DNA of 64,000 nt from Fulvia fulva (lineage: Eukaryota > Ascomycota > Dothideomycetes > Mycosphaerellales > Mycosphaerellaceae), in NCBI RefSeq assembly GCF_020509005.1, contig NC_063024.1, forward strand, positions 1,922,001 to 1,986,000, written 5' to 3'. The notes under the pieces were generated by a model. The model searched no databases. It was not told the origin of the DNA and saw nothing but the letters and a program-made list of their open reading frames with translations. Shown in pieces: positions 4,178 to 47,400 of the stretch (the stretch's first letter is position 1; each line of letters starts with the position of its first letter). The position numbers and the translations under genes are program-made.

Positions 4178-7100
4178 TTATGACAGGTTCAGCTGGCTTA
4201 CAAACCTCTGGAAGTGTGGACCAGTCTTTGGTTTTGTAAACCCGTCTGCAACCATCTCAGAGGTTGGGGTGTACTCAACAGCAATAAGCCTCCTCCACCA
4301 AAGTTTCCTAACAGCGTTATAGGCAATGTCAATGTGCTTCGACTTGTCATGAACATGTGCATCTTTCACTAGGGTGAGGGCAGCTTGATTGTCACCTCTT
4401 AATTGGACTGGTCTCAAATTTGATACAGTCTCCTGGTTTCCAGTGATTCTTGGTTGATGGGAACAGTCTCCCACTAACTCTGGACAATCCATTTCCCTCA
4501 GCAGTGAAGCTAGGAATTGGGACTGCTTCGCACATGCATTCATAGCCATGTATTCAGCCTCCATTGTGGATGTTGCTACAGACTTTTGCTTCTTGCTCAT
4601 CCAAGAAACTGGTGCCCCACAGAGGAAGAAGACATACCCAAGGATTGAGACTCTGTCTGCTTTGTCCATTGCATAATCAGAATCACAGTATCCAATAAGG
4701 TGTCCTTTTCCAGACTTTGAGAACTGAAGTCCTAGATCAGGGTATGATCTTAGGTACCTAGTGATCTTCTTCAAAGCCTTCATGTGGTAGGTGGATGGGT
4801 CACTCACAAATGAGCTCATCCTTCCTAGGGCAAAAGCAATGTCTGGCCTTGTGATTGTTGCTGGCCACATCCAAGTACCATTAATACTCTGGTACTCTGC
4901 CTTGTCACACCTCTCATCCATGTGGCTTGAAGGTTTGAGGGCCTCATAGCTGTCCATGGGTGAGTGTGTAGGTGCTGCCTTCTCATGGTTCATTCCCATC
5001 TTGGCTAGGCTGTCCCTAACAAAGTGTCCTTGGTCAAGTTTCAGGATTCCTCTCTTCCTGTCCCTTGTGACTCTCATGCCAAGGATCTTTTCAGGTTCAC
5101 CTAGATCTTTGATCTTGAAGATCTTGCCAAGTTCTCTTTTGAACCAGAGAACATCTGTCAACTTTGGTGCAGCAATTGGAATGTCATCCACATGTATAAG
5201 GATTATGATCTCCCTCTTCTTATGGATAAGTAGGCATGGATCCACTTCTGACTGTGTGAATCCAATCTCTCTGAGCTTTGACACACAGAGTTGATTCCAA
5301 TCTCTAGCTGCTTGCTTAAGTCCATACAAGCTTTTGAGGATTTTGAACACCATGTTTGGTGGAAGCTCAACTCCTGGTGGTGGTAACATGAAGATGTCTT
5401 CATGGAGGGTGCTTTCTGTGAATGCATTGTTCACATCCACTTGGTGAAGATGAAGATCCTTCTTACACACAATAGCCATAAACACCCTAAGGGTGTCCTG
5501 TCTTACTGTAGGTGCAAATGTCTCCATAAAGTCAACACCAAACTTCTGTGAGAAGCCCCTTGCAACTAGTCTAGCCTTGAACTTTTCAATAGCTCCACTA
5601 ATGCTTCTCTTAATATCAAAGACCCATCTTGATGTAACCAGATTTGCTCCTTTTGGTGGAACAGAATTTTCCCAGGTGTTGTTACTCTGTAGAGCATCTA
5701 GTTCCTTTTGGATTGCTTCCTTCCAAAGATGTCCCCATTTCTTGTCATTCACAGCATCCTTGTAGGATTTTGGAATTGGGACCTCTTGCTTGTATGCAAT
5801 GGCTTCTACAGTTGCTGCAAAGGCCATTTCCTCAACTTCTTCCAGGAATTCGCTATCCCATGGTATTGAACTGTCCACTGATTGCATGGCTGCAAAGAAA
5901 GCTTGGTGAAAAGCAGCAAGGTTCTCTGAGAGGTCCATTGCTTCTCCCACTTCAGTGGTTAGTTCAGGCTTAGGGACCATGGATCTTGGGGCTTTCTGTT
6001 TCATGTCATAGCCCTCAACATCATAGTCAGCCTTTCTCTTTCCAAGGGATGATTTAGGGACCGTCACTTGTGACCTAGTAACGTCTATTTCCTGGGGATC
6101 TAGAGAGCTTCTCTCAATTGGCTGATCGATTTTCTGAAATTCCCCTACGTTCTCCGGAGGCTGGGGAAGTTGCACAAACAGCTTTCTCGGCTGAGCGACT
6201 TTAGGGCTCTCAATTGGCTGATCTATTTTGGGGGGGCTCTGATGGACGCCTGAATGGTAGGTAGATTGTCCTAAGGATACGTTCTTCCTCGGCCTTCCTA
6301 AGGGCTTCCTAGCTGGTGCACTGCTTGGTAGATTCAACGTTGGAACATTGAGACCTATATCACCTCCAGGCTGGTCCTCAAAGAAGTCTGCATGTGTGTG
6401 TTGTTTAACAGCTCTCATGTCTGGTTCCCAAAAGAGCCAGGCTTTAGCTGTGTTTTCAACATACCCAATAAACACTGCTTCTTTACCCCTATTCATTAGC
6501 TTGTCACTTCTTGCCCATTGAGGTTGGGATCTTGTGTCCATATAGACAACAGCTTTGCATCCCCAAACTTTCAAATGGTTGATGGTCGGTTTGATACCAT
6601 CAAAAGCCTCATCTGGTGAAACCTTGAACCCATCGTAATCTGGGCCATTTGGCAGTTTGTTCCTCATATAAGTTTGGGCCTCTAGTGCTTCAGGCCAAAA
6701 TTCAACCGGCATTTTAGCCTCTTCAAGCATTGCCCTTATAGAGTCCTCTGAGGTTTGTATTGACCTCTCAACTGGTCCATTCTGTAGAGAGTTGTATGCC
6801 TCAGTCGGCTCGAGCCCAATCCCCAAATCCTTCTCCCACTGCTTCACTAATGCAATAAGTTCTTTTGCATTGTCAAGTCTTACTGCTTTCAGCTGCGCTG
6901 ATGATTTCCTCTCTGCTTTGATCTTCCAGTTCTGGAGAGCAACTGGAGCATCTTCTCTTTTCCTAAGAGGAAAGGTCCACTTCTTCCTAGAGAAGTTGTC
7001 AACAATCTCAAGCCAGTATTTGAATCCTAGTCTTGAGATTGGTAGTGGGCCACATATGTCAATAGATACAAGGGCAAGTCTTTCAGGTCTTCTCTCTGTA

Positions 7101-8809
7101 ACTTTGCCTTTGTACTTCTTCATCTTTGCTATTGAGCATACTCTGCACTGGTGAAAGCCATCCTTAGGGATAGGAATGGGTTCTTTCAAGTCTGTTACCT
7201 TGTGAAGATTCTGGAGCAAATTCTTCCCAAAGTGTGCAAATCTTCTATGCCAAAGCTCCCACTGCTTCAGGTCGGTCTCTGATTGAGCAGTCACAAAGGC
7301 ATTCTCCATTGGTGGTGCACATGATGAGTAATGTGCCCGTTCTTGTAGGAGAGGAGAAATCTCATCAATGAATGGAACCCCCCCAAGGAGCTTTGTCTGG
7401 ACAACAGTCTCACCAGAGGGGGAAACAAGAGAAAATGATGGAGGTTGCACACCAAACTGCTTGCTAAACTGGTTCCATGAAACCAGGTTCACTCCTAGCT
7501 TGGGTACAAGCAGGACATCTTCCAAAACAACTTTTCTGCCAGCTCTCCCACTCATCTCTGCATTCCCAATATGAGTGGCCAATAAAAACCCACCTCCCAC
7601 TTTGATCCATTTCTTCCTTGTCAAGGGAGTCATAGATCTAAAGAGGCAGCTTTGGTCAGTCATATGGGATGAAGCACAGGAGTCAAGTAACCACTCTGAC
7701 GAGGGGAACTTGCCTTGGACTTCTGCAGTTGAGTGAGCCACTTCATCATACTCATCATCATCAGACATTGTCTCTGGGGATGAGCTGCATGGTGACTCTT
7801 GGGCGGAGAAACCTTTTCCAGTCTTCTTTGCTTTAGAGGTATAAGACTGGGCCTGGTTCTTCTGGAGTGACAGCATGTCAGAGCTGAGTTTCTTCACCAT
7901 TTTCTTAAGTTCTTCCATAGAGGACTTCTCTCTTGGTGTCCTCCTTGAAGTGGGTGGTGGAGTTCTCTTCTTCTTGACATGTGTTGTATTCTGGGAAGAT
8001 GGTGGTTGGGAATGAGATCTAAGGACCTTTCTTGCCTCAGGCAAACTAGGGCAGTCCTTGATCAGATGATCCTTCTCACAGAGAAGGCAGGAGAGTGGTC
8101 TTGCTAGACCTGAGGGCTTGACCCAGGTGGCTGCCATGCCATACTCAGCCTTAGAGGGATCCAACCTGGCTTCTTGAGCTTCAAGGATCTTTAAGGTCCT
8201 TTCATGATCCATCTTTGGCTGAGCCATGATAGTATCCCTGGCTACATGGTAGTCAGGTGGCAGTGAGCTTAAGAGCTGGGTCATCCTCACATCAGCTTTC
8301 CTGTAATGCTGACCCTCTGGGTCAACATCAGCAATCCTTTTTCCAAGAGAAACCAGGTGTGTCCATGCAGATCTGATGGTGAGCTCTTCACTCATCTCAA
8401 AGGTCACAAATTGCTTTGTGAGCTCATGTGCATGGGTTGGTAGCACCTGGCTATACTTGTTCCAGAGATACACCCACTTCTCAGCAGCTCTTCCAGATTC
8501 ACATGAGCCCTCAAGCTCAAATTCATCTTCTTCTGTGATCCTACTAAGGATACTGAAGTTGCATACTGCATTGTGTCTTGTCCATGTTGGCGTATTGAGG
8601 ATCTCTTTGGTTGTAGCCTCTTCTTGGAGTTTCAGAGTCTTGCCCTTGATGTTGTCAAAAGACACTTCCATTAGGTCATCAATTGCAAAGAATGCTGATT
8701 GGCTCTCCATCTTGTATCTCTGAAGGTTGAACCATCTCTTCCAATTGTCCCTCCCAAGAATTGGGATTTTGCCTCCCTTCTCCTCTGTCTTCTCTTGGTA
8801 TGAATCCAT
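4178..8809 (-). CDS. Copia Gag-Pol polyprotein (1543 aa)
   Basis: A single ORF encoding capsid, protease, integrase, reverse transcriptase and RNase H for a Ty1/copia retrotransposon. I chose the ATG at 8809; eight further in-frame codons lie upstream without an ATG. Visible in order: a Gag domain; a zinc knuckle CLLCEKDHLIKDC, with CX2CX3HX4C spacing; protease WLLDSCASSHMTD, where the usual DSG/DTG is DSC; the integrase zinc site (H, H, CRVC); integrase core acidic residues in SIDICG, RLDNAKE and NGPVERS; reverse transcriptase ARLVARGFSQ and HVDD in place of the usual YVDD; RNase H with GYCDSDYA, STMEAEYMA and DNQAAL. Length fits a complete copia polyprotein and no stop or frameshift is present. 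It ends 65 bp before the 3' LTR. Confidence 0.95.
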   Translation of the reverse strand: MDSYQEKTEEKGGKIPILGRDNWKRWFNLQRYKMESQSAFFAIDDLMEVSFDNIKGKTLKLQEEATTKEILNTPTWTRHNAVCNFSILSRITEEDEFELEGSCESGRAAEKWVYLWNKYSQVLPTHAHELTKQFVTFEMSEELTIRSAWTHLVSLGKRIADVDPEGQHYRKADVRMTQLLSSLPPDYHVARDTIMAQPKMDHERTLKILEAQEARLDPSKAEYGMAATWVKPSGLARPLSCLLCEKDHLIKDCPSLPEARKVLRSHSQPPSSQNTTHVKKKRTPPPTSRRTPREKSSMEELKKMVKKLSSDMLSLQKNQAQSYTSKAKKTGKGFSAQESPCSSSPETMSDDDEYDEVAHSTAEVQGKFPSSEWLLDSCASSHMTDQSCLFRSMTPLTRKKWIKVGGGFLLATHIGNAEMSGRAGRKVVLEDVLLVPKLGVNLVSWNQFSKQFGVQPPSFSLVSPSGETVVQTKLLGGVPFIDEISPLLQERAHYSSCAPPMENAFVTAQSETDLKQWELWHRRFAHFGKNLLQNLHKVTDLKEPIPIPKDGFHQCRVCSIAKMKKYKGKVTERRPERLALVSIDICGPLPISRLGFKYWLEIVDNFSRKKWTFPLRKREDAPVALQNWKIKAERKSSAQLKAVRLDNAKELIALVKQWEKDLGIGLEPTEAYNSLQNGPVERSIQTSEDSIRAMLEEAKMPVEFWPEALEAQTYMRNKLPNGPDYDGFKVSPDEAFDGIKPTINHLKVWGCKAVVYMDTRSQPQWARSDKLMNRGKEAVFIGYVENTAKAWLFWEPDMRAVKQHTHADFFEDQPGGDIGLNVPTLNLPSSAPARKPLGRPRKNVSLGQSTYHSGVHQSPPKIDQPIESPKVAQPRKLFVQLPQPPENVGEFQKIDQPIERSSLDPQEIDVTRSQVTVPKSSLGKRKADYDVEGYDMKQKAPRSMVPKPELTTEVGEAMDLSENLAAFHQAFFAAMQSVDSSIPWDSEFLEEVEEMAFAATVEAIAYKQEVPIPKSYKDAVNDKKWGHLWKEAIQKELDALQSNNTWENSVPPKGANLVTSRWVFDIKRSISGAIEKFKARLVARGFSQKFGVDFMETFAPTVRQDTLRVFMAIVCKKDLHLHQVDVNNAFTESTLHEDIFMLPPPGVELPPNMVFKILKSLYGLKQAARDWNQLCVSKLREIGFTQSEVDPCLLIHKKREIIILIHVDDIPIAAPKLTDVLWFKRELGKIFKIKDLGEPEKILGMRVTRDRKRGILKLDQGHFVRDSLAKMGMNHEKAAPTHSPMDSYEALKPSSHMDERCDKAEYQSINGTWMWPATITRPDIAFALGRMSSFVSDPSTYHMKALKKITRYLRSYPDLGLQFSKSGKGHLIGYCDSDYAMDKADRVSILGYVFFLCGAPVSWMSKKQKSVATSTMEAEYMAMNACAKQSQFLASLLREMDCPELVGDCSHQPRITGNQETVSNLRPVQLRGDNQAALTLVKDAHVHDKSKHIDIAYNAVRKLWWRRLIAVEYTPTSEMVADGFTKPKTGPHFQRFVSQLNLS

Positions 8810-9242
8810 AATAAATTGGATGTAATGAAACAAGGTGTGTATGTTCCAAGGTGGTGGCTCAGATCCTGCTGAGGCTTCTGGTGTAGAATGGGAAAGTTCG
8901 TAGGTGTGGATACCAAGGCCTGCTTGGTAAAGTAAAGAAGGAGCGGTGTGAAGTCTCGGGGCTAGGACACAGGTCTGTCTCTCCTAGCAGAGCTTCAAAT
9001 GACTTACTTGAAGTCCTTCTTGATAGTATCTCAATGCAGTTCTGCCTACAGAGTATCTTCAAGGTATTGGCTTTGAGTAAGCCGCACAGAGTCCTTGTCT
9101 GGGTTACCTATCACTTAGTATCGAACTAAGCTCCTTGATAGGATAGACGGGGTAGACTTCTGATTCCCAGATGTTTTCTGCTACGATAGCAAGGGATACA
9201 AGTAACCTGTACTGATATAGGTTGCTCTTATTCCTGCACAAA

Positions 9243-10058: not shown

Positions 10059-10502
10059 TGTCATGGTCTCCCCACAGAGTGTACAGAAGGTGGGGACAGA
10101 AGAGCCTCAGAGCGCTCAGAAGTCGTCAAGAAGTGACAGTCCAGCTTGGTGTGTGAGCGCCAAGAATCACATGCCCCGCAACATTCACTACGGGACCCAG
10201 CCCTCCAAATTCACCCCTCTACCAAACCTTGAAGCACGTGGAAGACTCGGAACGTAGGGCAGGTTGGAATAAGGTTTTGAGCAAAGCTGCTAAGCGCGGC
10301 TTCGCACGGGTTAGCCCTGTTGATGCGGGGGACACGCACTAGCGAGGGTCGCGTATAAATATCTGGCCTTCCCCAGGCCTCTCTTGCTTTCTTCGTCTTT
10401 TGTTTTGTGTAGCAATCATACCATACCCTTTTGCACCTGCACTTCGCACCTGCATTCTCGCTTTCACCCTTGCATCTCACAGGCCAGGCTCTCGCCCTGA
10501 CA
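10059..10502 (+). repeat. 5' LTR of the Gypsy element
   Basis: 444 bp, TGTCATGG...CCTGACA. It holds a TATA box (TATAAATA at 10354-10361), so transcription probably starts some tens of bases downstream. Confidence 0.95.
10354..10361 (+). promoter_or_regulatory. TATA box of the Gypsy 5' LTR
   Basis: TATAAATA in a GC-rich context inside the LTR. A pyrimidine-rich stretch follows, including GTCTTTTGT at 10395-10403, a likely start region for the element transcript (inference). Confidence 0.6.
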
Positions 10503-10504
10503 TC

Positions 10505-10513
10505 ACAAAAGAC
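10505..10513 (+). other. Possible self-priming site of the Gypsy element
   Basis: ACAAAAGAC lies 3 nt inside the 5' LTR edge and is the exact reverse complement of GTCTTTTGT at 10395-10403, about 40 nt after the TATA box. No TGG typical of a tRNA primer site follows the LTR. Tf1-type elements prime from the folded-back 5' end of their own mRNA, and this arrangement fits that model. A 9-nt match alone is weak evidence. Confidence 0.4.
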
Positions 10514-10544
10514 CAACAAACCGTCAACCACTCGAGTCATCCTC

Positions 10545-11705
10545 ATGGGTGACCACGCCACCGATAGAGGTGTCAACCTCGACAACCAAGACACTCCATT
10601 CCACTTCAGTGAGTGGACTGACATCCCCTTCTCGAACGCCGCTGCCTTCGGTGCCTGGGCAAACGCCAACCCCGACACCGCCTACGCTCTCATCAACCGC
10701 ACCGTCTCCTCTTTCCGCGAGACCGCCCAGCAGGTCGAGCAAGCAAACAACCAAGCAACATACCTTCAAGGTATTGTGAACACCTTCCAGAACCTCGCCC
10801 CGCACGCCGACGACAACCGCCGCCAGCACTTCTCCAAGAAGGTCAACGACCCAGACGAGTTCGACGGCAACAAGAGCAAGTTTGAGGCATTTGAGACACA
10901 GCTCACCATCAAGCTGTTGGCTAATGCCGACCACTTTCCGCAAGAGAAGGACAAAGTCACGTACGTCTTCTCCCTCCTTCGGGGAGACGCCGCGGCTCAG
11001 GTACAACACTACATCGACAACGCCACGCAGACTATCGGCTGCCCGGACGTCCTCACCTTGATGCAGGACCTCCGTGCTGCCTTTGGTGATCCAGACCGTA
11101 GAGCCACCGCCCAGAACGCCATCCACAACCTCCTCCAGAAGAACAAGAGCTTCGCCGAGTACCTCGCGGCCTTCAACCGCGACATCGGGTTCACCGGCTA
11201 CAACGAAGAGACCAAGAAGAGCACTCTCCGCCGTGGTTTGTCAGCAGAGCTTCTTCGAGCCCTCGAGGACAAGGACGTCGGTGCTATGAGCTTCCGTGAG
11301 CTCGTCGAGACCTGCCAGCGCCTCGACTCCAACATGAAACACACCGCCTCTCTCCTCGCTTCCCGTTCTCAAGGTCGTCAGCCTCGTGGTCCCGGAAGCC
11401 ACTTCGCTGCTCCACTAGGCGCCGCCGCTCCTACGGCTCTCCCCCCCGTCTCTGTAGGTGACGCTATGGATCTCAGCGCTGGTGCCGCCGTCCCTCGAGT
11501 CCAGGGCCTCGTCAACGGTAAGCTCACTCCCGAAGAGAAGCTTCGCCGTCGCCAGGCCGGACTCTGCACCTACTGCGGCGGTCCAGGCCACATCGCAGCC
11601 AACTGTCCGCAGCTCGCTGCCCGTAACGCCCGCAACCCGGTTCGCGGCGCTGTCGGCGCTATCGAGCCTGCTCCTGCTGCTCCCGCTGAGCAGGAAAAAG
11701 CCTAG
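10545..11705 (+). CDS. Gypsy Gag protein (386 aa)
   Basis: Capsid and nucleocapsid protein of the Gypsy element. The ATG at 10545 is the first in frame after the LTR; the frame is open further upstream, but only inside the LTR. The middle carries a retrotransposon gag domain (about residues 100-250), and the C-terminal part has one zinc knuckle, CTYCGGPGHIAANC (CX2CX4HX4C), for RNA binding. It ends with TAG at 11703-11705. The pol frame overlaps by only 16 nt in the -1 frame, so Gag-Pol is probably made by frameshifting. Confidence 0.9.
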   Translation: MGDHATDRGVNLDNQDTPFHFSEWTDIPFSNAAAFGAWANANPDTAYALINRTVSSFRETAQQVEQANNQATYLQGIVNTFQNLAPHADDNRRQHFSKKVNDPDEFDGNKSKFEAFETQLTIKLLANADHFPQEKDKVTYVFSLLRGDAAAQVQHYIDNATQTIGCPDVLTLMQDLRAAFGDPDRRATAQNAIHNLLQKNKSFAEYLAAFNRDIGFTGYNEETKKSTLRRGLSAELLRALEDKDVGAMSFRELVETCQRLDSNMKHTASLLASRSQGRQPRGPGSHFAAPLGAAAPTALPPVSVGDAMDLSAGAAVPRVQGLVNGKLTPEEKLRRRQAGLCTYCGGPGHIAANCPQLAARNARNPVRGAVGAIEPAPAAPAEQEKA

Positions 11706-14700
11706 GTCTTCCTCATCGACGCGATGAAGACCAAGAACAACGTTTACCGAAAGTGAAGAGAGGAAAGAAGTTGAGGATCAATACAGCACAGCTAGACCTG
11801 TACGACGAGACGGGCAAGGACCACGCTTGCAAACCGTTCGTCACGAATGTAAATATCGGCTCAAAGAAACTCTCTTCTTCCAATCTCACTCTCATGGACA
11901 CTGGCGCACTAGGCGAGTCTTTTATGGACTATAAACTCGCGACCTCTCTCAACCTCGAACCCCAGGAACTGAAGTACCCTCGCACCCTTGAACTCTTTGA
12001 CGGCACGGAGACTACCACTGGTAAGATTACTCATGTTGTACACACGTCAATCACCCTCGGAGGCAAGCGTATGTCGATCACCAGCTTCCTTACGTCCCTA
12101 CCGCATCAGAAGTTTATCCTCGGCCTCCCCTGGTTCAGACGACACCGACCTATCATCGACTGGACTTCCCTTACTATCAGCTTCCCTCCAGAAGTTCCTC
12201 CGGCACCTCCGCCTTCTCCGCCGCCTCAGCGCGGTCCTGAGTATACCAAGATCTTCCAGGTGAACGCCGCTGCCTTCACCACTGCTGCTAAGCAGCCCAA
12301 AGCTCAAGTCTTCGCCGCCTCTCTCCGCGATATCGACATCGCCCTCGAGAAGCTCGACAAGAAGCGTACACCTACCGACCCTACTACGAAGGTCCCTCCT
12401 TGGGCACACCACATCCTCCACGTATTCGATGCTAAAGCCGCAGACGAGCTGCCTCCTCATCGCCCTCACGACCACAAGATTGAGCTAGAAGAAGGTGCAG
12501 AGACACCGTTCGGACCGTTATATTCCATGTCCCGAGAAGAGCTTATCGTCCTCAAGAGATACCTCGAAGAGAACCTAAAGAAGGGGTTCATTCGAGCGAG
12601 CCGTTCCAGCGCTGGCAGTCCCGTCATGTTCGTCAAGAAGCCCGGCGGTGGTCTACGCTTCTGCGTAGACTACCGAGGCTTGAACGCTGTTACAAAGAAG
12701 AACCGCTACCCAATACCGTTGATTCAGGAGACGCTCGAGCGCCTCTCTAAGGCCAAGTACTTCACCAAGCTCGATGTCATCGCTGCGTTCAACAAGTTAC
12801 GAATGGCAGAAGGACACGAGTATCTCACAGCCTTCCGTACTCGCTACGGGCTGTTCGAGTCGCTCGTTATGCCCTTCGGCGTTTGTAACGGGCCTAGTAC
12901 CTTCCAGAACTTCATTAACGACATCCTTCAGGAGTTCCTCGATCAGTTCTGCACTGCCTACATCGACGACATCCTAGTCTACAGCGAGACCAAGGAGGAG
13001 CACCGCGAGCACGTCTGTAAGGTCCTTCAGAAGCTCGCAGACGCCGGCTTGCAGCTCGACATCGACAAGTGCGAGTTTGAGAAGACCGAAGTCAAGTTCC
13101 TTGGTTTGATCATTACCGCAGACGGCATCAAGATGGACCAAGAGAAGATCGACGCTATCGTCGAATGGGATGCTCCTACGAACGTCAAAGAGGTCCAGGG
13201 TTTCCTAGGCTTTGCCAACTTCTACCGCCGCTTCATCCACGCATTTTCGGGCGTGGTACGCCCTTTGACGAAGCTCACGCGCAAGGGTGAGAAGTTCGCC
13301 TGGACCGACGAATGCCAGGAGGCTTTTGACTTGCTCAAAGCGAAGTTTGTTGAGAACCCGCTTCTACGGCACTTCGATTTCGAACTGGAGACCCGTGTAG
13401 AGACCGACGCATCCGACGGCGTGGTGGGCGGTGTCCTGCTACAACGCCGCTCGCCTGAATCCCCCTGGTTACCTGTCGCCTTCCTCTCCAAGAAGATGAC
13501 CGCCACGGAGTGTAACTACGAGATCTACGACAAGGAGCTTCTCGCCATCGTCAAAGCTTTCGAAGAGTGGCGCCCCGAGCTCGAAGGCTCTGCTATGCCC
13601 GTCCAAGTAAGCTCCGACCATAAGAACCTCGTCTACTTTATGAAGAGCAAGCTGCTCAATCGTCGCCAGGCCCGCTGGAGCGAGTTCCTCTCCCGGTTCA
13701 ACTTCGTGATCTCGTACACGCCCGGCAAGGCCAACTCGATGGCCGACGCCCTTACCCGCCGCCCTGGTGACTCTCCAGTTGATCGAAGAGGGGGCCGGCA
13801 AATCGTAGGGCAACAAGTCATCAAAGAGCACAACCTCTCTTCCGAGCTTCGAGAGTACCTATCGAACGGCCAGCCTACGCTCGCCGCTTCCTTTGCTACT
13901 CTCGTGCTCGCTCCTGCCTACCTTGACGAGAGTGACGATGAATCCGAGCCTGAAGAATACGCCTCGGACGCTGAGGACTTGAACGACGATGAAGAGGGCT
14001 CAGTAACGACCGACGGCTCATCCGAATCAGACTTTGAGGGGTTTGATAATGAGGAGCAGCCCGAAGGCATTATGGCACGAGTACGAACAGCGTACGATGC
14101 CGACATAGACGCCCAAGAGTTAGTTCAGGCCCTTGGATCTGGCGCGAGGACATTCCCGGGCTTCTCGCTGTCCGAGTGCGAGCTCCAGGAAGGTGTCGTC
14201 TACTTCCGTAAGAAGCTTTACGTACCGCAGCCCGAAGGCTCTAATATCCGAGCTGAGATTCTTCAAATCATCCACGACTCCGCCTCTGGGGGTCACCCAG
14301 GCGTAGCCAAGACCCACAAGCTCCTCGCTAGGTATTACTGGTGGCCGCATTCCTGGAAGGACGTCCGCCGCTACGTGCTGAACTGCGCTACTTGCCGAAG
14401 AGCCAAAGCTAACCGCCACCGTCCCCACGGTCTCTTGCACCCTCTCCCGGCTCCTGATCGTCCGTGGAAGCACATCACTATGGACTTTATCACCGATCTT
14501 CCTCACGGCAAGACCTTCAGCGGCGTGAAAGCAAAGGCCCTTCTAGTGATCGTGGACCGTCACTCCAAGGACCGGTACATGATCCCGTGCTGGAGCATGA
14601 CCGCAAAGGAGACTGCTCGCTTGTTCTACGAATTCGTCTGGCGCTTTCAAGGCCTCCCGGATAGCATCACCTCTGACAGAGGCACCCAGTTCATCTCGCA

Positions 14701-15952
14701 CTTCTGGAAGCGTCTGTGTGCTATCCTGGGCATCAAGCATAACCTCTCGACCAGTTTTCAGCCACAGACCGACGGCCAGACCGAAATTACGAACGCTATC
14801 CTCGAGCAGGTCCTTCGTTGCTTCGTCGACTACCACCAGAAGGATTGGCCTCAGCATATCCCTGCGGTGGAGTTCGCTACTCGTAACTGGGACTCGGAGA
14901 CTACTGGCTACTCTCCCTTCTATACTACGAGAGGTTACCACCCTCGTACAGGCATGGAACCAGAAGAACCTCTCCCGCCTACCGAAGACGCAAACGAGCA
15001 AGCAGCAGACGCGTTCGCTACTATGCTCTCACAGATCCATGAAGAAGTTCACGACGAGATGGTGTACGCACAAGCAATCTACGAGGATCAAGCCAATCGT
15101 CGTCGCCAGCCAGCTCCCGACTACCAAGTAGGCGATATGGTCTACCTCAACTCTAAGAACATCAAGACGGACCGCCCCTCCAAGAAGCTGAACTGGAAGA
15201 ACCTAGGTCCTTTTGAGATCACCGAGCGTATCAGTTCACACGCCTACCGTCTAGCTCTTCCTGCGAACATAAAGATCCACGACGTCTTCCATCCCGTACG
15301 CCTTCGGCCGTCGGCTGAGGACCCATTCCCGAACCAAAACCAAGACATGCCAGGTCCTCCCGATGAAGTAGAAGTCGACGAGCCTATTAACCTACCTTCT
15401 GACGACTATGCCGTCCGCAAGATCCGGGGAATCCGCGCAGAGCCTAACGACGTTGAAGGACTACCGCCGATCAAGTATGAAGTCGAATGGCAAGGTTGCC
15501 CTGAGTGGGATACCTCATGGGAACCTATCCAACATATCATCTTCAATCGTCAAGCAATCGAAGAATACCACGCCCGCGCAGACGGCCCAGAAGTCAACAT
15601 CGGCAGGCTCTTCGAATCTGAGCTCTTCGACGGGGCTTACCAATGGTGTATCGACCATGACATCAGGCCTAGGCCTGGTACTGAAGCTGAACATCCTCGA
15701 TATGTGGAACTACTACGGCTTCGTAGGAACTCAGCTTTGTTCGGGGGGGCTACTGTCATGGTCTCCCCACAGAGTGTACAGAAGGTGGGGACAGAAGAGC
15801 CTCAGAGCGCTCAGAAGTCGTCAAGAAGTGACAGTCCAGCTTGGTGTGTGAGCGCCAAGAATCACATGCCCCGCAACATTCACTACGGGACCCAGCCCTC
15901 CAAATTCACCCCTCTACCAAACCTTGAAGCACGTGGAAGACTCGGAACGTAG
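11690..15952 (+). CDS. Gypsy Pol polyprotein with C-terminal chromodomain
   Basis: Enzymes of a chromovirus-type Ty3/gypsy element, in the -1 frame relative to gag. The frame opens just after a stop at 11687-11689. There is no ATG near the start, so it is probably reached from gag. Order: aspartic protease (LMDTGALG); reverse transcriptase (FVKKPGGGLRFCVDYRGLN, YIDDILVYS); RNase H (ETDASDGVVGG, YDKELLAIV); an acidic linker rich in D, E and S; integrase zinc site (H, H, CATC) and catalytic core (TMDFITDLPH, TSDRGTQF, QPQTDGQTE); then a chromodomain (IKYEVEWQGCPEWDTSWEP). Chromodomains can direct integration to marked chromatin. The frame runs 199 nt into the 3' LTR before stopping. Confidence 0.93.
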   Translation, partial: AGKSLGLPHRRDEDQEQRLPKVKRGKKLRINTAQLDLYDETGKDHACKPFVTNVNIGSKKLSSSNLTLMDTGALGESFMDYKLATSLNLEPQELKYPRTLELFDGTETTTGKITHVVHTSITLGGKRMSITSFLTSLPHQKFILGLPWFRRHRPIIDWTSLTISFPPEVPPAPPPSPPPQRGPEYTKIFQVNAAAFTTAAKQPKAQVFAASLRDIDIALEKLDKKRTPTDPTTKVPPWAHHILHVFDAKAADELPPHRPHDHKIELEEGAETPFGPLYSMSREELIVLKRYLEENLKKGFIRASRSSAGSPVMFVKKPGGGLRFCVDYRGLNAVTKKNRYPIPLIQETLERLSKAKYFTKLDVIAAFNKLRMAEGHEYLTAFRTRYGLFESLVMPFGVCNGPSTFQNFINDILQEFLDQFCTAYIDDILVYSETKEEHREHVCKVLQKLADAGLQLDIDKCEFEKTEVKFLGLIITADGIKMDQEKIDAIVEWDAPTNVKEVQGFLGFANFYRRFIHAFSGVVRPLTKLTRKGEKFAWTDECQEAFDLLKAKFVENPLLRHFDFELETRVETDASDGVVGGVLLQRRSPESPWLPVAFLSKKMTATECNYEIYDKELLAIVKAFEEWRPELEGSAMPVQVSSDHKNLVYFMKSKLLNRRQARWSEFLSRFNFVISYTPGKANSMADALTRRPGDSPVDRRGGRQIVGQQVIKEHNLSSELREYLSNGQPTLAASFATLVLAPAYLDESDDESEPEEYASDAEDLNDDEEGSVTTDGSSESDFEGFDNEEQPEGIMARVRTAYDADIDAQELVQALGSGARTFPGFSLSECELQEGVVYFRKKLYVPQPEGSNIRAEILQIIHDSASGGHPGVAKTHKLLARYYWWPHSWKDVRRYVLNCATCRRAKANRHRPHGLLHPLPAPDRPWKHITMDFITDLPHGKTFSGVKAKALLVIVDRHSKDRYMIPCWSMTAKETARLFYEFVWRFQGLPDSITSDRGTQFISHFWKRLCAILGIKHNLSTSFQPQTDGQTEITNAILEQVLRCFVDYHQKDWPQHIPAVEFATRNWDSETTGYSPFYTTRGYHPRTGMEPEEPLPPTEDANEQAADAFATMLSQIHEEVHDEMVYAQAIYEDQANRRRQPAPDYQVGDMVYLNSKNIKTDRPSKKLNWKNLGPFEITERISSHAYRLALPANIKIHDVFHPVRLRPSAEDPFPNQNQDMPGPPDEVEVDEPINLPSDDYAVRKIRGIRAEPNDVEGLPPIKYEVEWQGCPEWDTSWEPIQHIIFNRQAIEEYHARADGPEVNIGRLFESELFDGAYQWCIDHDIRPRPGTEAEHPRYVELLRLRRNSALFGGATVMVSPQSVQKVGTEEPQSAQKSSRSDSPAWCVSAKNHMPRNIHYGTQPSKFTPLPNLEARGRLGT

Positions 15953-25018: not shown

Positions 25019-25142
25019 GCCTCTATAGCTCAGTCAGTACTACGTTGAGTTGTGCTGTTGAGCGATCATACTGACAACCCGCAGGTGGTAGAGCGCATCA
25101 CTAGTAATGATGAGGTCTTCGGTTCGACTCCGAATGGAGGCA
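25019..25142 (+). tRNA. tRNA-Thr (anticodon AGU) with a 52-nt insert in the D-loop
   Basis: Acceptor stem GCCTCTA/TGGAGGC (25019-25025 with 25135-25141; one T-G pair) with discriminator A at 25142. D-stem GCTC/GAGC (25028-25031, 25091-25094). Anticodon stem CATCA/TGATG around loop CTAGTAA with anticodon AGT at 25103-25105. Variable loop of 5. T-stem TTCGG/CCGAA around TTCGACT. The B box GGTTCGACTCC is perfect. The D-loop is 59 nt instead of 7. Deleting 25033-25084 leaves AGTGGTA, a standard D-loop. The insert splits the A box, though TAGCTCAGTCAG still resembles one with a single mismatch. There is no insert at the canonical 37/38 site. It may be a working gene with a novel intron, or a pseudogene. 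Confidence 0.85.
25033..25084 (+). other. Intron-like insert in tRNA-Thr D-loop
   Basis: 52 nt starting GTCAGT, with ACTGAC 10 nt before the terminal CAG: the 5' splice, branch and 3' splice signals seen in the protein-gene introns of this window. GTCAGTA (25033-25039) and TACTGAC (25069-25075) can form a 7-bp perfect stem. Because GT flanks both ends, the exact edges are ambiguous by 2 nt. Confidence 0.6.
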
Positions 25143-25163: not shown

Positions 25164-25168
25164 TTTTT
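25164..25168 (+). terminator. RNA polymerase III terminator of tRNA-Thr
   Basis: Run of five T on the + strand, 22 nt after the tRNA end. This is a standard Pol III stop signal and suggests the locus kept its tRNA transcription unit. Confidence 0.6.
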
Positions 25169-39362: not shown

Positions 39363-40025
39363 GGTGAGAGCGGACATGTGCGCGAGCCGTGAGGGAAGTG
39401 GTAGGCGTAGGGTCTATATGTGGTCGGGCGGGTGCCTCGGTCGCAGGAAACGATGCAGCGTCGGAGGCGGTTTCTATTCCAGAAGATGCTTCCATGCCGC
39501 TCGGAAAGCCGGTAGTGGACGCGCAGGGCAGCACCACAAAGACACGCCAACGCCGGACCACGACTGCGCGATTGACGCTGTTTCAGGCGTGTGGGTGGAA
39601 TTGTAGATCTCGGCCAGTGGCAGGATCATAGGAAGTGCGCGCCAGTAGTATGGCAGGAAATGTGTAGGGCAAAGGAGGGAGTGTCAATCGATGAATGCAT
39701 GCATGTCACACGCCACGCACGATGCCTGACATCAAACCGTCACCTACTTCTGAATCGCCTGGCCCATTCACCGGGTATCGCAGGGTCGACGCAGCAGGCT
39801 GTGCTTGAGCGCCGACGCGCGCTGAAACACTGAAACACCACTGCATTGGGCTCTGCGTGCTAGCTTCGCCTTCGCCTTACGTGGTCCGCAGTCCGCCTAC
39901 CCAGACACCCAGGCGGCATTGCGCCGCAGGAAACGCGACCGCTTTCGACACATCGCCAGATCATGCTGCGGCCCACATAGCTACCGACAGTGTGGGAGCC
40001 CTCGAGGCGACAACAACCAGAGAAC
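39363..40025. other. Divergent promoter region of SED5 and the giant disordered protein
   Basis: 663 bp with several short overlapping ORFs but no protein-like content. No canonical TATA recognised. Confidence 0.5.
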
Positions 40026-43000
40026 ATGTCGCACAACCAGCAACCCAACATTCCCGGCGGGCCAGTCTCGTTCAAAAGCAATCCGCAGCGGCACAAGACA
40101 CAGAAGTGGGTAAAGGCGCCGACATACGACTACGAAGGCGACGAATGGGCTGGGTACGATGATGGATACTACGGCTACGATGACCCACCACCACCGCCTC
40201 AGCCACAAGCACAAGCCCAAGCGCAAGCTCCATATCAGCAAGGACGCCCACGAGACCGGACAAACAGCTTCGATCGTGGCGACGAGGCGCGACAGTTCAG
40301 TGCGCCTGCTGCTCCTGCTTCATCTTCGGCCTTTCCGGTGTATGAAGAGCCGCGCAGACCCTCGCACGACTATGGAGCTGGACCTCGAAGCGCAGCGAGC
40401 GGAGCGCGAGGCAGTCATGACATGCCGCGCAGCAGAAGCAGACCGCGCGACTTCACCAACCCAGAGCAAGTCCCGCCACCGCTGTCTATGAGGCCCGGTG
40501 CCCCGCCGATGCCGCATGCCTCGCCTACACCCAACGAGTGGTTCCCTCCTAGAAAGAGCAGCATGAGAGGTGGCACGGCAGAAGCTGCCGCACAAGCCGC
40601 CGAAGCAAGAGCTATTGCAGAGAGCGTCACAAAGCCGCCCGTGTCAGCCGACGCGAACAATCCTGACAAGCCTCTGCCCATCATCAGGCCCAGTGACATT
40701 TACAAGCGGATAGCTGAGCGAAGGGCATCCGAAGCTGAAGAAGGCGGCAGGCCATCAATGGATACGTTGAACAGCGAGGTGTCACCGAATCAAGCCCTTG
40801 GGCTCGAACCCGTTGCTGAAAGCAGGGAGTCGAGGATGTTCATGGATCATCAGGTGCCAAATGTGGACACTGAGAACAGACAGCCCAGCAATAATGCTGC
40901 CTCTGGCCAGCTTCCAACTCTCCACACAGGTGCTGTAACTTCGGCATCACAGCCTGGACGATCAACGCTGACTCCCCGCGAGTATCGCGACACGAGCCCT
41001 ACGTTACCTCAGCTGGCGCCTGTATCTGGCTTTGGTGATGACTTCGCACGCATACTTGACGCTGGATCGGAAGATACATCGAGGGCAATTACATCACTAA
41101 ACACAGCTGGACTGTCTGGATCACAGACCACTTTCAGCTCCCTGCAAAACACGCCCACAGCTACTCGAGCACCATACGGTACCGATCCCGCCGCACAAGT
41201 TGCAGCAGAACGTCAGCACGATGTATCCGTAGATGCGATCGCCAACCAAAACTCAGCAGCGCTTCAGCACCAGCCTTCCTCCGGCTTCAGGTCGGCAGTT
41301 CATCAAGCTTTCGACCACGAGGGAGCCACGCCTCTGTCGCGAGACAATTCCGAGGGGCACGGCAGTACTGGTATCAACAGGAGCGACACGAGCTCGACAG
41401 CTGGTATCAGTCCTATCATGAGCAGAGTGCCGTCTGCAGCTACTGCAAAGTTCCAACAACAGCAGCGTATGGAAGAGACTGTACCCTCGATCGCGGAAGA
41501 ACCAACTTCTGCTCACACGCCTACAGCCTCGAGACCTGGACCTGGACTTCAAGGCCAACACAGGATCTCTCGCAAGCCGTCTCCGGGAGCTCACAGCCGG
41601 ACTGCCAGCGGAGAACGTCCTTCAAGCTTCGAGCCTGGATACCGACGAAGTCTGGATCCACCGAGTACTGGTACATCGCCAGCACGAACGCCTGAGCTCG
41701 AGACGACTGCAAACAAGCGACTCAGCGCTCCCCTGTCCGCAGTTCCAATGTCGGACAATGACGCACCAGACGTGGCGGACCAAGCTGCAGAGATGCCGGA
41801 CCCTCATCTCGAACCTGCCGAGACACCAGCTAGTGAGGTAAGCGATGTGCGCGACCTCGGAGGACCGGCAGCGTACAAACCGCTTCCTACAGCTACTCGA
41901 GGCAGGAGCGACACCAACTACAGTGAACGTGAGGCTGATCTTGCGGCGGCTGTCAACTCTTCGTCGGACAAAGGTGTTGCCTCGCCGGCAATCGCAGAGG
42001 CGCAGAGAGACAGCCAGAAGCTATTTCTAGAGACGCACTCTGGCACACCAAACCCGACATCTCCGCGCTCACCCAATGCTAGACTTGGGTCACCACTGTC
42101 CGGCACACCTGCACATGGAGGCCGTGCAGATAGTCCAGCGAAGAGTCGCAGCCGCGTTCGCGAGATTGCGCACAAGTTCCACCAGATCCACGAGCATTCC
42201 AGGCGCAACTCGGCTGCGAGTATCGGCTCGAACAAGTCAAGCTGGAGTCAGTTCAGCACAGATGCACCAAGGCTGAAACGACAGGGAACATCGCAGTCGG
42301 CGCTTGCTGTTGAGAACCCTGTCGCCGATCACGATGCGAGAGAACCCGTGGGGTTCGCAGCGCCTCAGCCACATCGGCCTGAGTTCGGACGTGAAGAATC
42401 ATTCAGACCCGATCTGCCCGGTGGGTGGATCAGTACTGCACCGACTCCCTCTGTCGAGACCCCGCCGCCAAACTCGGATGCTAGGGCGATGCATGAGACT
42501 TCACCACTGACGCCAACGATGCCACAAGGCCTCGAGCGTGCAACGTCTGACGACAACATCGACCTGACTCCGACTACTAAGAAGCATCAACTTCGGGAGT
42601 TACCTAACATGCCCTCATCGGAGGCGGTCCCTACACTACAGAGGGCGACGTCTGACGAGGTAGTTGACCTATCGCCTACAAGACACTATGAGCCAGAAGC
42701 GCAACCCGCAGCTTTTGCCACGCTGAAGCAACATGGCGATCAACTCGGGTCGTCGTTCATCTCACAGTATGGCGTCGGCCATCAAACGCGGGACTTTGCA
42801 TCGACCGCCCCTGCAGCTCCTGTTGACCAACCCGAAACGCAAGCCAAGGCCCCAACTGGGGCAATTTTCAATCGGCCACATCTCATGCGCCTTGACAGTG
42901 ACAGCACGAATGCACCGACAAGTGTAGCATCATCTGTGGCACCCACGCCTCCCGCGAAGGATACCCCCAGGCGAACCGCGCCCGGTTCCAGCGCTGCTGC

Positions 43001-44428
43001 TGGCGGTGAATACTTCAACTCGGTAGCGCCACTGAGGTTCCAATCGCGAGAGGCGTCGCCGGAGAATCAGCAAGGATCTCTCTCCCCACAACGACCGACT
43101 GTACTACCTACACTGTCAACCGATACTGGCAGCGACGACATGGACAGCGATCGCTTGCGCCATGAGATCGTGCGCAGCCTTGACCCGGTGAAGAAGGACG
43201 AGCTTAAACGCGAGAGCATCACCGAAGATGTCGAACGCACGCAAGACGCATTAGACGCGCCAAGCAACGAGCGCGGAATGGAACAAGGCAACACACCACT
43301 CCCAGCTGTGGAGGCCACTTCTACCCGCCCTGGTCTTCTGGACACCAGGTTCAGCTGGGAGAACAGGAACGGAGTCTTCTCAAGCCAGAAGGCTATACCA
43401 GAGCCAGAGCCTCGCAGCCCGAAGATCAAGCCTGAAATGGCGTATGAGCGTCCTCGTGACAAGGCTCTGCACGTCATGAATCCTGAAGACCAAGTCGACT
43501 CTCCCGCAGAAGGTAGTGCTCCAGTCCTCAAAGAACCATCGGCAGCTGAGCATGATCTGACGCATTCTGCTGCGCCTGTTGGCACAAACGACAATTTGGT
43601 TTCACCGATGACCAGAACTCAAGAGCTCTTATCACCCGAGACTAACCTGCAGCCGACTGAGACCAACCCCTCTCTGCAAGATCTGGCGCCGTCGCCGATC
43701 ACAGACGACGAGCCTCACTCTCGAAACTTGCCTTCATACTATGCTGGTGCTGACGATGATACGAGCGGTAGCGAGATACCACATGTCCCGGAGAAGAGTC
43801 ACGAAAATGCTTCGTCGATGGCTCCAGGTCCGGATTCGCCTTCAACGTCAAGACGAAGCGCACCGATACCGCCATTCAGGAACATCCTTGCCATGAAGAC
43901 ACCTGAAGAGCGCATTGCTACTTATAACGAGACGCGAGACACATTCGCCGGCATGAACACTGGGCTCGATGACTGGCTCAGCAAGATGCTCGAGACGCAT
44001 CCTGAGCACGCGAACCTGTCTACATCTCATACTGGTTTCAAGCCTCCAGCACTCCAGAGTCCCGGAACAAACACATTCAAGCGTGGCCACAAACCCAGCC
44101 CAAGCTTGGCCAACTTCAAGAACAAGTTTGCGGGCGGTGATGCACAAAGAAGCACCTCCATCGGCAGCACAGACGGCACCAGTGCAGCCGACAGCAAGCC
44201 TACAAGGAGCACCCTGGGCGATGGCAAGGGCGTCGACATGGAAGAAGTCAAAGCCAAAGGCAAAGAGTTCATGAAGAACGCCAACGTCCTCGGCGGCAAA
44301 GCCAGTCAAGGCGCCAAAAGCTGGTTCAACAAGTCCAAGAGCCGGCTTGCCAGTGGAAGTGGCAGTGTTCGCGGCGGCAAGAACGAGGTATGATCTGTTC
44401 CTTCTCTTTCTCGAACATCCCTCACTAT

Positions 44429-44461
<33 letters not shown>

Positions 44462-47400
44462 AGGCATACAAGCGGTTTGGCTTTTGGCTGAGACTGCTTC
44501 AGGGTTGATATTCGTGCTGGACACCATACAGCTGAGCGAAGGCGTTACTGGCGGGGCTTTTTTCCCTTATGGTGTTACGACATTGCCTCTCTTTTTTCAC
44601 CATTCCTGTGTATCATATTTTGAGCATAATGCCTTCCTCTGACTTGGCGCAAACACACACTTCACCTGCTGTTCCTCTTCCCTACATTGATCACATCGTA
44701 TACCCCGACCCATGATCTGTTTCTTGAGAATGAAAGAGATGCAAGCTTATGGTAAGTGCAGGCTTCTTCACCCCTCGTCAAGTCGAGCACTCCTGCTCAG
44801 GCGTCGCCTCTCAAATCTCGTACGCAGCAGTCGAGCCAGTCGATGCCTGCTGCATCGACGGTACCTGATGTGCCAGCTGCGGTTGCGTATAGCAATGTTG
44901 TTCCCATCTCAACACCGATGCGTCAGGACGCTATACCGAAGGATCCCACATCGGCCAGAGCAGCTACGGGGCATCTCGATCAGCCAGAGACACGACCAGC
45001 CACTGGAGAAGTGCAAGCAAGCACTACAATTCAGCTTCCCGAAATTCGTACGCCTCCAGCGCCTGGCACATCAGATTTATCGACAAATGAGACCAGGCAA
45101 CATCGAACTACCGAAGATGAAACACACAGCAATGAGGTATCAAGGAGTCAGCGCGATGCTAGTGTTCGAGCTGGTGGCCGTGACACGCCGATGAACGACC
45201 TCGTAGCCCACGATGAATCGAGAGATGACAGCTTCGTGAGTGCTGAGCAGGATCATGTAGTGAGCGGTCCTGTACCCGTCGATGCTGTGGGTGAGGAACA
45301 AAATGCGACTCACGACTCACGCGCGATTCAGGCTGCTACCAGAAACTCATTATCTGCGCAAGAAGCCGACGCTGGAACAAGCTCTCCTGCAGCAAGGAAC
45401 ATTGCACATGAGCCCGTTAATATATCCACGGCAATGCACGATCCCGATGCAGGGAGGACCTCACCTCTGCAGGAATCTGCACCTCTCGCGCTGACGAGGA
45501 CCCGAAGTCCGGAATTGGCTCCCGCGCGGATGGCTGCCGCAGAGTTTGAAGGTTTCGGCAACGCCACCATGAGCAGCCCAGCGGTGTCAGCCACGCTCGT
45601 ATCGCCGTCTATCCCAAATACTTTGCCCGCTGGCCTCACGTCGCCGACACCTCACTCGCTCTCACGGCAGACCTCGCGTTCGAGCCCGTTTCGCAAGAGA
45701 GATCGATCGCAGACTCCGTCCAGTACTCGTACGGGGGCAAGTGGAAGGCCGATTAGTCAGGCTTTTGGACGACTCAAAGATAAGGCCAGATCCATGAGTC
45801 GGTCATCGACCCGATCTGCTCGCAGTCGACCGGCTAGTTTGGCTCTTTCCAACCCGAATCTTGTCGGACAGAGACATGAAGATCAAGTCGCACCAGATGG
45901 CTCCGCTACCGCCACTGCTGACTTCGCGCTCAATGACTTATCCGACGTCGCTGTGCGGCCAGGCATGGGCGACCACACGCATATGGAATCGAGCTACTCT
46001 GGCGTGAATGCCCCGGACACAGAGCAGAGAGCCGCCAACGAGGAGCAGAAGCGACCAGACCCCAACCCACAGCGAACTCGAACGTCGAGAGTCATGTCAA
46101 TGGCCTCACCAGATCGCACGGAAGCCTGGAATGAACCCGACGCAACGATCCCGCCCAAGACGCCGACGAAGGAGCAGGCGGAGAGTCCGCGAAGGCTGGG
46201 TGTGCTGCCTAGTCCTGCGCCTACGACGGCGACGTTTGAGGGTGATAGAAGGGCGTCGCTAGAAGTGGCGAAGCGGCGAAGCAGTGCTGCGCCGTTTATG
46301 GGAAGGCAGAGCGGCGAGTTTGGGGTTGAACTGTTTCCTGTGCCCAGTGCTGATAGTCGTGAGGAGGAGAGGGCTGGACGGAGTGGGCAGCCTGATGAGG
46401 TTGTGTTCGGCAGTCCTGGAAACAAGCCAGCGTCGACGGTCGATCAGGCCGCAAAACCACAATCTCAAGTGGAAGGAACTACAACATCGAGCCTAGCGCA
46501 AGAATCGACCCAAGCCTTGTATGAAGGAACAGACTATCCCAGCGACAAAGAAGATGACAGCCGTCCGGCTGATCGACATCGAAAGTACGCTGGTCTCGGC
46601 AGAGTGATTGCTGCAGCGAGCGGATCGCCGCGACCAGGACCACACCAGCGTAAATTTAGTGACATTGAGCTTTTGCCAAGCCAGCGGCGAAACTCGGAGT
46701 TTAACGGCGGAAGGCCGGACAGTATGGCGCTCGCACCGCTTACGATACCTAGCAGCGAAAGCGTCAGTGCGAGGGAAGATGTGTATCAAGTCAGTCCGGT
46801 GACGATTGCGTCGGCGAAACCACAAGTCGCTTCGCCTTTGCAGCAGAAGTCGCCCGCTGCGGGAAGAGTGCCTTGGTCAGGAACTGGCGATAAGTATGAC
46901 ATTAGTGGTGTACATCGCGCTTTGAGTACCGGCCACGAGAAAGCGATCGAGAAGATGGAACGCGAGATTCGAGAAGCTGCTGCTTCTCCTGCCGCTGCAG
47001 AGGTACCCGTGGCAGCCATGAAGGTGAAGGCTAAGGACGATGACGCCAGGAGTGAGATTTCTGCAGAAGGTGGCGACCCGGACAGCTACCATAATACTAC
47101 AAGCCCTTCCAGACATTCGTCTGTGTCGAGCCTAGGAGCACAAGACAGAGGAGTGGCTTTGGAGCAACCAGCCATGTCAGCACAGACTGTACCGGCAGGA
47201 CCGATTAGTGGATCTTTGACGACATCGCAGAGTCAACCTGCGAATAGTGATGTGGATGCTGCGCAGCAAACACAGCCTGTGTCGACTGGTTTGACACCTG
47301 TGAAATTCCAGCAGCGATTTGCCAATCGACAGTACGCAGACCGGCGGCCGTTCCTGTGCGAGCGTCCATTGTCATATATGCCTGGGCCAAAGGATTCTAG

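Follow-up and report, generated by a model that had tools for sequence, protein, structure and literature searches.

Nuclear tRNA introns are taught as substrates of the tRNA endonuclease. A tRNA-Thr(AGU) gene of Fulvia fulva, located in the 64-kb stretch of genomic DNA that we analyzed (referred to below as the window), raises the question of whether tRNA genes can also be interrupted by introns of the mRNA type. The split gene, discriminator A included, occupies positions 25019..25142 (+), as judged by direct reading, the parse of an intron-tolerant finder, and folding. Its first exon (25019..25032, +; GCCTCTATAGCTCA; direct reading and finder parse) provides the 5' acceptor strand and positions 8-14, and it is followed by a 52-nt GT-AG intron in the D-loop (25033..25084, +; GTCAGT...ACTGAC...CCCGCAG; direct reading and finder parse). 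This intron begins with the 5' splice-site-like hexamer GTCAGT (25033..25038, +) and contains the branch-site-like motif CTGAC (25071..25075, +), whose A residue at 25074 is positioned 10 nt before the intron end; both elements were recognized by direct reading and in our survey of inserts, and the AG of the 3' splice site (25083..25084, +) was read directly. The second exon (25085..25142, +; GTGGTAGAGCGCATCACTAGTAATGATGAGGTCTTCGGTTCGACTCCGAATGGAGGCA) comprises the remaining D arm, the anticodon arm, the T arm, and the 3' acceptor strand. Direct reading and the finder parse place the anticodon AGT at 25103..25105 (+) in a gene devoid of a 37/38 intron, and direct reading and a B-box pattern identify an uninterrupted B box, GGTTCGACTCC, at 25121..25131 (+). 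Downstream of the gene, direct reading and our analysis of T runs reveal a T5 stretch resembling a Pol III terminator (25164..25168, +).

Upon removal of the 52-nt insert, a cloverleaf with an AGU anticodon is the minimum-energy predicted fold of the joined 72 nt. Direct reading and this fold thus bear out what a preceding sequence-only reading of the window had described, a 52-nt GT-AG insert in the D-loop of a tRNA-Thr(AGU) gene. The extent that this reading assigned to the insert (25033-25084) fits its GT-AG ends, but the cloverleaf alone does not fix the joint; since a large number of placements reach equal scores (16 parses lie within 0.3 of each other), the exact joint in the D-loop is set by the GT-AG rule. 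Group I and group II introns require a length far above 52 nt, and no Rfam gathering match was obtained in the window. The first seven nucleotides of the intron (25033-25039, GUCAGUA) are exactly complementary to 25069-25075 (UACUGAC), which sets the 5' splice site against the branch region, and the fold predicted for the isolated intron pairs these two segments.

ARAGORN called no tRNA gene in the 64-kb window, and the Rfam tRNA model matched solely the 3' part of the Thr(AGU) gene (25081-25134) with 23.1 bits at a cut-off of 29. When the intron-tolerant finder was run over both strands of the whole window, it reported two rows, both corresponding to the gene at 25019-25142 (one of them includes a spurious extra upstream piece), and it produced zero matches on both strands of 90,750 bp taken from 30 other loci. 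Interruptions of this kind could explain why tRNA genes are missed by standard tools, as ARAGORN did with the window gene. Elsewhere in the window, we noted Copia-type and gypsy-type retrotransposon reading frames (4178-8833 and 10431-15952), two long open frames of 1467 and 1573 amino acids (39990-44393 and 44756-49477) that have no Pfam match at E 0.001, and a gene for a HET-domain protein. HET-domain genes are typical of Pezizomycotina.

Among the outcomes that would mark the window copy as a pseudogene, the sequence-only reading had named several normal Thr(AGU) genes together with the absence of this copy from relatives. As to normal Thr(AGU) genes, our search of the genome sequence (67,169,167 bases in 14 contigs) pointed in the opposite direction. 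A BLAST search with the window gene identified two further Thr(AGU) genes: that on contig C7 possesses a single insert (GTGCGT...CTGACAAGTCAATAG), and that on contig C3 possesses two (GTGAGT...GCTAACAAAAAGTTCAG and GTATGA...GACTAACCTAAACACAG), separated by an 8-nt exon. The D arm is the site of GT-AG inserts in each of the three Thr(AGU) genes found. A pattern search for anticodon arms of the Thr(AGU) type retrieved the same three genes together with a single site at which the arm is unpaired; it yielded no uninterrupted Thr(AGU) gene among those that such a pattern can detect, i.e., genes without anticodon-arm introns or different variable regions.

We then extended the survey to other tRNA genes, using Rfam, a tRNA-exon query, and B-box/terminator and D-arm patterns as seeds. 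The finder allowed GT-AG inserts anywhere in the gene and, in addition, a free 37/38 intron of variable length from which neither GT-AG ends nor a branch motif were required; it was run on 81 regions. In total, 58 GT-AG inserts of 49-62 nt (median 54) were found in 35 tRNA genes, each of which carries one to three of them. Since similarity and B-box/T-run patterns served as seeds, and since the Rfam seeding scored 63 of 1234 candidates, these numbers do not stand for a share of all tRNA genes. The affected isotypes are Thr(AGU) (three genes), Thr(UGU) (two), Thr(CGU) (one), Lys(CUU) (four), Glu(CUC) (five), Asp(GUC) (four), Gly(GCC) (four), Gly(UCC) (one), Arg(ACG) (three), Phe(GAA) (two), Met(CAU) (two), and one gene each for Ile(AAU), Pro(CGG), Val(CAC), and Leu(AAG). 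The inserts correspond to 34 distinct sites, which are distributed over the D arm, the anticodon stem, the variable region, the T stem, and the T loop; 31 of these 35 genes also possess a 37/38 intron. For several isotypes, every located copy is interrupted: 3/3 for Thr(AGU), 4/4 for Lys(CUU), 4/4 for Asp(GUC), and 2/2 for Phe(GAA).

We picked the list of 35 genes from the finder output, and all of its members have a GT-AG parse; L132, L025, and all regions for which no parse was obtained were left out. L132 was omitted since several decoy end pairs parse equally well there, and L134 was retained although it reaches a score of 56.0 uninterrupted, beside 62.9 with the intron. Thirteen of the 81 regions, L134 included, reached a parse score of at least 55 without a GT-AG insert; 12 tRNA genes parse cleanly in this way, and further insert-free ones are recognized by Rfam alone. 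The other 34 regions either lacked a clean parse or were left off the list; according to Rfam, this group includes tRNA genes, and it also includes loci that are not tRNA genes. An Arg(ACG)-like gene (L128) parses with a score of 53.1 without a GT-AG insert, and L025 has a Glu(CUC)-like Rfam match and no clean parse; we therefore do not deny uninterrupted copies of Arg(ACG) or Glu(CUC). The parse of the two tRNA-Met genes (L075 and L082) places an unusual insert of 40-41 nt close to the anticodon loop and is less secure.

Several loci encountered in the survey are recorded here as separate observations. Six near-identical tRNA-like genes (L016-L021) are found on six contigs (C1, C2, C5, C9, C12, and C4) with identical visible flanks and are perhaps carried by a mobile element. 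L104, L108, and L127 are related, small-gene-like stretches in which a T run is followed downstream by a B-box-like motif; Rfam gave no match to them at E values up to 0.5. A further group of tRNA-like loci (L089, L098-L101, L114, L115, and L125), some arranged as tandem pairs, possesses apparent anticodon-arm introns of about 70-90 nt; with respect to the Rfam tRNA cut-off, L089, L115, and L125 are above it, L098 is just under it, and L114 has no match. Finally, L022 (C10:3362228-3362361) was parsed as a tRNA with the anticodon GAT and a 63-nt intron in the anticodon loop, which may be a misparse; among eukaryotes, this anticodon is said to be found in Cyanidioschyzon merolae alone (PMC3978253, in part).

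The selection of genes by a GT-AG parse and the survey scoring, which favors a branch motif, bias these data, and the controls with flat scoring reduce this bias but do not abolish it. Under flat scoring with up to two inserts, GT-AG ends afforded a parse in 31 of 68 regions (L132 still counted among them), in comparison with 0-3 of 68 for 15 decoy end pairs; shuffled regions gave no parse (0/272). We also freed one insert at a time with regard to its ends, length, and place, while the gene start and the other inserts were kept fixed. The best placements included GT-AG for 50 of the 58 inserts (about 1.1 expected), and the eight freed placements that favored other ends count against our reading. 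In a separate version of this test on 16 single-insert genes, GT-AG was included in 15, and the GT-AG placement was unique in 5.

Further properties of the inserts resemble those of mRNA introns. CTRAY is present in 50 of the 58 inserts, and TTAAC, TTGAC, or CTTAC in six more, with the A always 9-13 nt from the 3' end; the survey scoring favors the motif, not its spacing. An intron in the GST gene of the window, deduced from the reading frame, is 96 nt long and has its branch A 11 nt before the end. The dinucleotide AG precedes 10 of the 34 distinct insert sites, compared with a background of 7%. The 5' splice sites are partly unusual, e.g., GTTCGT in 6 of the 58 inserts. Very short internal exons separate two GT-AG introns in three tRNA-Lys genes (TCGTG, 5 nt; L069, L072, and L084) and in a tRNA-Val gene (CGGT, 4 nt; L092). 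Known splicing rules would make the joining of exons of 4-5 nt very difficult, and this, like the unusual 5' splice sites, counts against a spliceosomal reading.

When copies of the same gene were compared (eight sets), the mature sequences were found to be 98.3% identical (88% for Thr(AGU) and 98-100% in the other sets), in contrast to 62% for GT-AG inserts at the same site; unrelated inserts are 55.5% identical, and the 37/38 introns of gene copies are 65% identical. From the difference between mature sequences and same-site inserts, it follows that the joined tRNA is the conserved part. Moreover, copies with and without a given insert agree once they are joined, as seen for the Gly gene on C3 and four other Gly copies, for Arg L119 and L117, and for Phe L122 and L121. 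Two inserts found in the Lys genes L069, L072, and L084 are missing from Lys L073, whose sequence agrees there save for one T-stem base.

These data bear on the possibility, also raised in the sequence-only reading, that the window gene is a decaying tRNA copy hit by a chance insertion. Insertions in the D or T arm of eukaryotic tRNA genes are usually interpreted in this way (PMC4090602, in part). As to the marks of a pseudogene, a decayed cloverleaf and functional copies elsewhere, we found an intact joined cloverleaf and, by pattern, no uninterrupted Thr(AGU) gene. The sister Thr(AGU) genes are interrupted as well, as is every located Lys(CUU), Asp(GUC), and Phe(GAA) gene, the exons are conserved across copies while the inserts have diverged, and GT-AG ends occur far above the decoys. 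We consequently disfavor chance insertions into tRNA pseudogenes and regard them as extremely improbable. The window gene is instead very probably a functional tRNA-Thr(AGU) gene in which a short spliceosomal intron interrupts the D-loop, as one member of a genomic set.

If the inserts are introns, the question arises as to which machine would remove them. Archaea, C. merolae, and nucleomorphs have tRNA genes with several introns at unusual positions (PMC4090602, PMC8450103, and PMC3978253, each in part), and non-canonical introns that the tRNA splicing endonuclease excises at bulge-helix-bulge motifs might therefore be considered in F. fulva as well, the more so as most of the surveyed genes (31 of 35) also contain 37/38 introns. 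A central four-pair helix is found in 4 of the 58 inserts, compared with 2% at random offsets, but the combination of this helix with an outer helix (at least three of four pairs) occurs in 0 of 58. The absence of the motif is by itself indecisive since many introns of the Guillardia nucleomorph have no defined motif (PMC3978253, in part). All 58 inserts are positioned outside 37/38, the site of eukaryotic endonuclease introns, and cutting by the endonuclease leaves the GT, the branch motif, and the AG unexplained; we consider it highly improbable. Their mRNA-intron-like length, the spacing of the branch site, the lack of a full bulge-helix-bulge motif, and the AG preceding the insertion sites point to the spliceosome. 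The spliceosomal type of D-loop intron proposed in the sequence-only reading is thus strongly supported by anatomy, and the pattern extends to the 35 tRNA genes surveyed.

Spliceosomal introns normally reside in Pol II transcripts, and on this ground, the tRNA genes might be parts of longer Pol II RNAs and be spliced there. The distribution of T runs argues against such a host transcript. A T5 run is absent from all 35 gene bodies, TTTT is present in 2 of the 58 introns where 7.1 are expected (8 of 1000 shuffles were as low), and a T run of four or more follows 3' of all 35 genes; because 20 of the 35 genes were found via T-run or D-arm patterns, the unbiased count is 15 of 15. With a T run soon after each gene, we judge the Pol II alternative quite improbable; the lack of internal T5 runs, the depletion of TTTT in the introns, and the T runs behind the genes lead us to infer that the genes are transcribed by Pol III. 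A TATA-like motif is found upstream of 17 of the 31 intron-bearing genes with enough upstream sequence and of 7 of the 12 uninterrupted genes, in comparison with 14% for points drawn at random from the window; the window gene has none within 75 nt. Since the motif is present in just 17 of 31 genes and missing at the window gene, genes with split A or B boxes still need a promoter answer.

Hence, the best reading of the inserts is that they are spliceosomal introns in Pol III tRNA genes, where they would exist alongside ordinary 37/38 introns. As judged from the T runs, Pol III would transcribe the tRNA gene up to the T run; as judged from the intron sequences, the GT-AG introns would be excised by the spliceosome through branch-site chemistry. 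The 37/38 intron, where present, would be taken out by the tRNA endonuclease and ligase, and the joined RNA would then fold and be charged.

With regard to the origin of the inserts, the sequence-only reading had suggested an introner-like element that landed in a Pol III gene, and F. fulva is indeed known for such elements (PMC4457414, in part). Introns 1 and 2 of a tRNA-Glu gene (L097), located in the D arm and the T arm, resemble each other so closely that 0 of 2000 shuffles scored as well. They are clearly related, and intron sequence has therefore moved within this gene by copying or conversion. Against recent introner-like elements stands our finding that the 16 of the 58 inserts that we queried in a single combined search match their own loci alone, with E values up to 10; hence, these are not recent introner copies. 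In addition, a size of 49-62 nt fits regular fungal introns (50-55 bp) and not the longer introner-like elements (PMC4457414, in part). Recent introner-like elements are consequently an unlikely source of the inserts, and the suggestion lacks support in this form. The introner-like elements of F. fulva nonetheless offer a parallel in the same species, since they likewise represent a gain of spliceosomal introns; they differ in that they are described from protein genes, as longer introns that exist in near-identical copies, and the word "tRNA" occurs 0 times in the available text of that report (PMC4457414).

In lichen fungi, spliceosomal introns are present in rRNA genes; these, too, are short introns with GT-AG ends that interrupt structural RNA genes in ascomycetes, but they reside in Pol I rRNA genes and not in tRNA genes. 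The U6 snRNA genes of fission yeast contain mRNA-type introns (Tani and Ohshima 1989, 1991, via PMC10484740, in part), so that mRNA-type introns in noncoding Pol III genes are already known. The tRNA genes of F. fulva share with U6 an mRNA-type interruption of a Pol III-transcribed noncoding RNA; the difference is that one gene is affected there and a set of tRNA genes in F. fulva. The single U6 match in the F. fulva genome (G000:C4:1169208-1169308) spans the full model and has no intron, which, like the tRNA genes free of GT-AG inserts, counts against our reading. The Thermoproteales, C. merolae, and the Guillardia nucleomorph likewise have tRNA genes with as many as three introns, located in the D, anticodon, and T arms (PMC4090602, PMC3978253, and PMC8450103, each in part), but in the available text, these introns are endonuclease-based, or very short with their removal left unexplained, and are not described as having GT-AG ends and a branch site. 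The canonical 37/38 introns occur in the same F. fulva genes but at another site and with variable length. The tRNAscan-SE 2.0 paper gives one intron as the limit for eukaryotic tRNA genes (PMC8450103, in part). We found no report of spliceosomal introns in tRNA genes in the mostly open literature that we searched; older or closed papers may contain one.

Taken together, our analysis suggests that the machine that splices mRNA is also needed for making tRNAs in F. fulva. We consider it rather likely that the spliceosome is an obligatory tRNA processor in this fungus, that Pol III precursors of many tRNA families pass through two splicing systems, that exons of 4-5 nt are joined, and that tRNA genes are still gaining and losing spliceosomal introns, with an intron also copied from one site to another within a tRNA-Glu gene. 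If this is true, the inserts would represent a new class of tRNA intron, and the supply of tRNA would be coupled to spliceosome activity. Gene copies with and without the same intron would provide a system for testing the gain of spliceosomal introns. Should essential tRNA genes need the spliceosome, this machine would be able to serve structured Pol III RNAs at a large scale.
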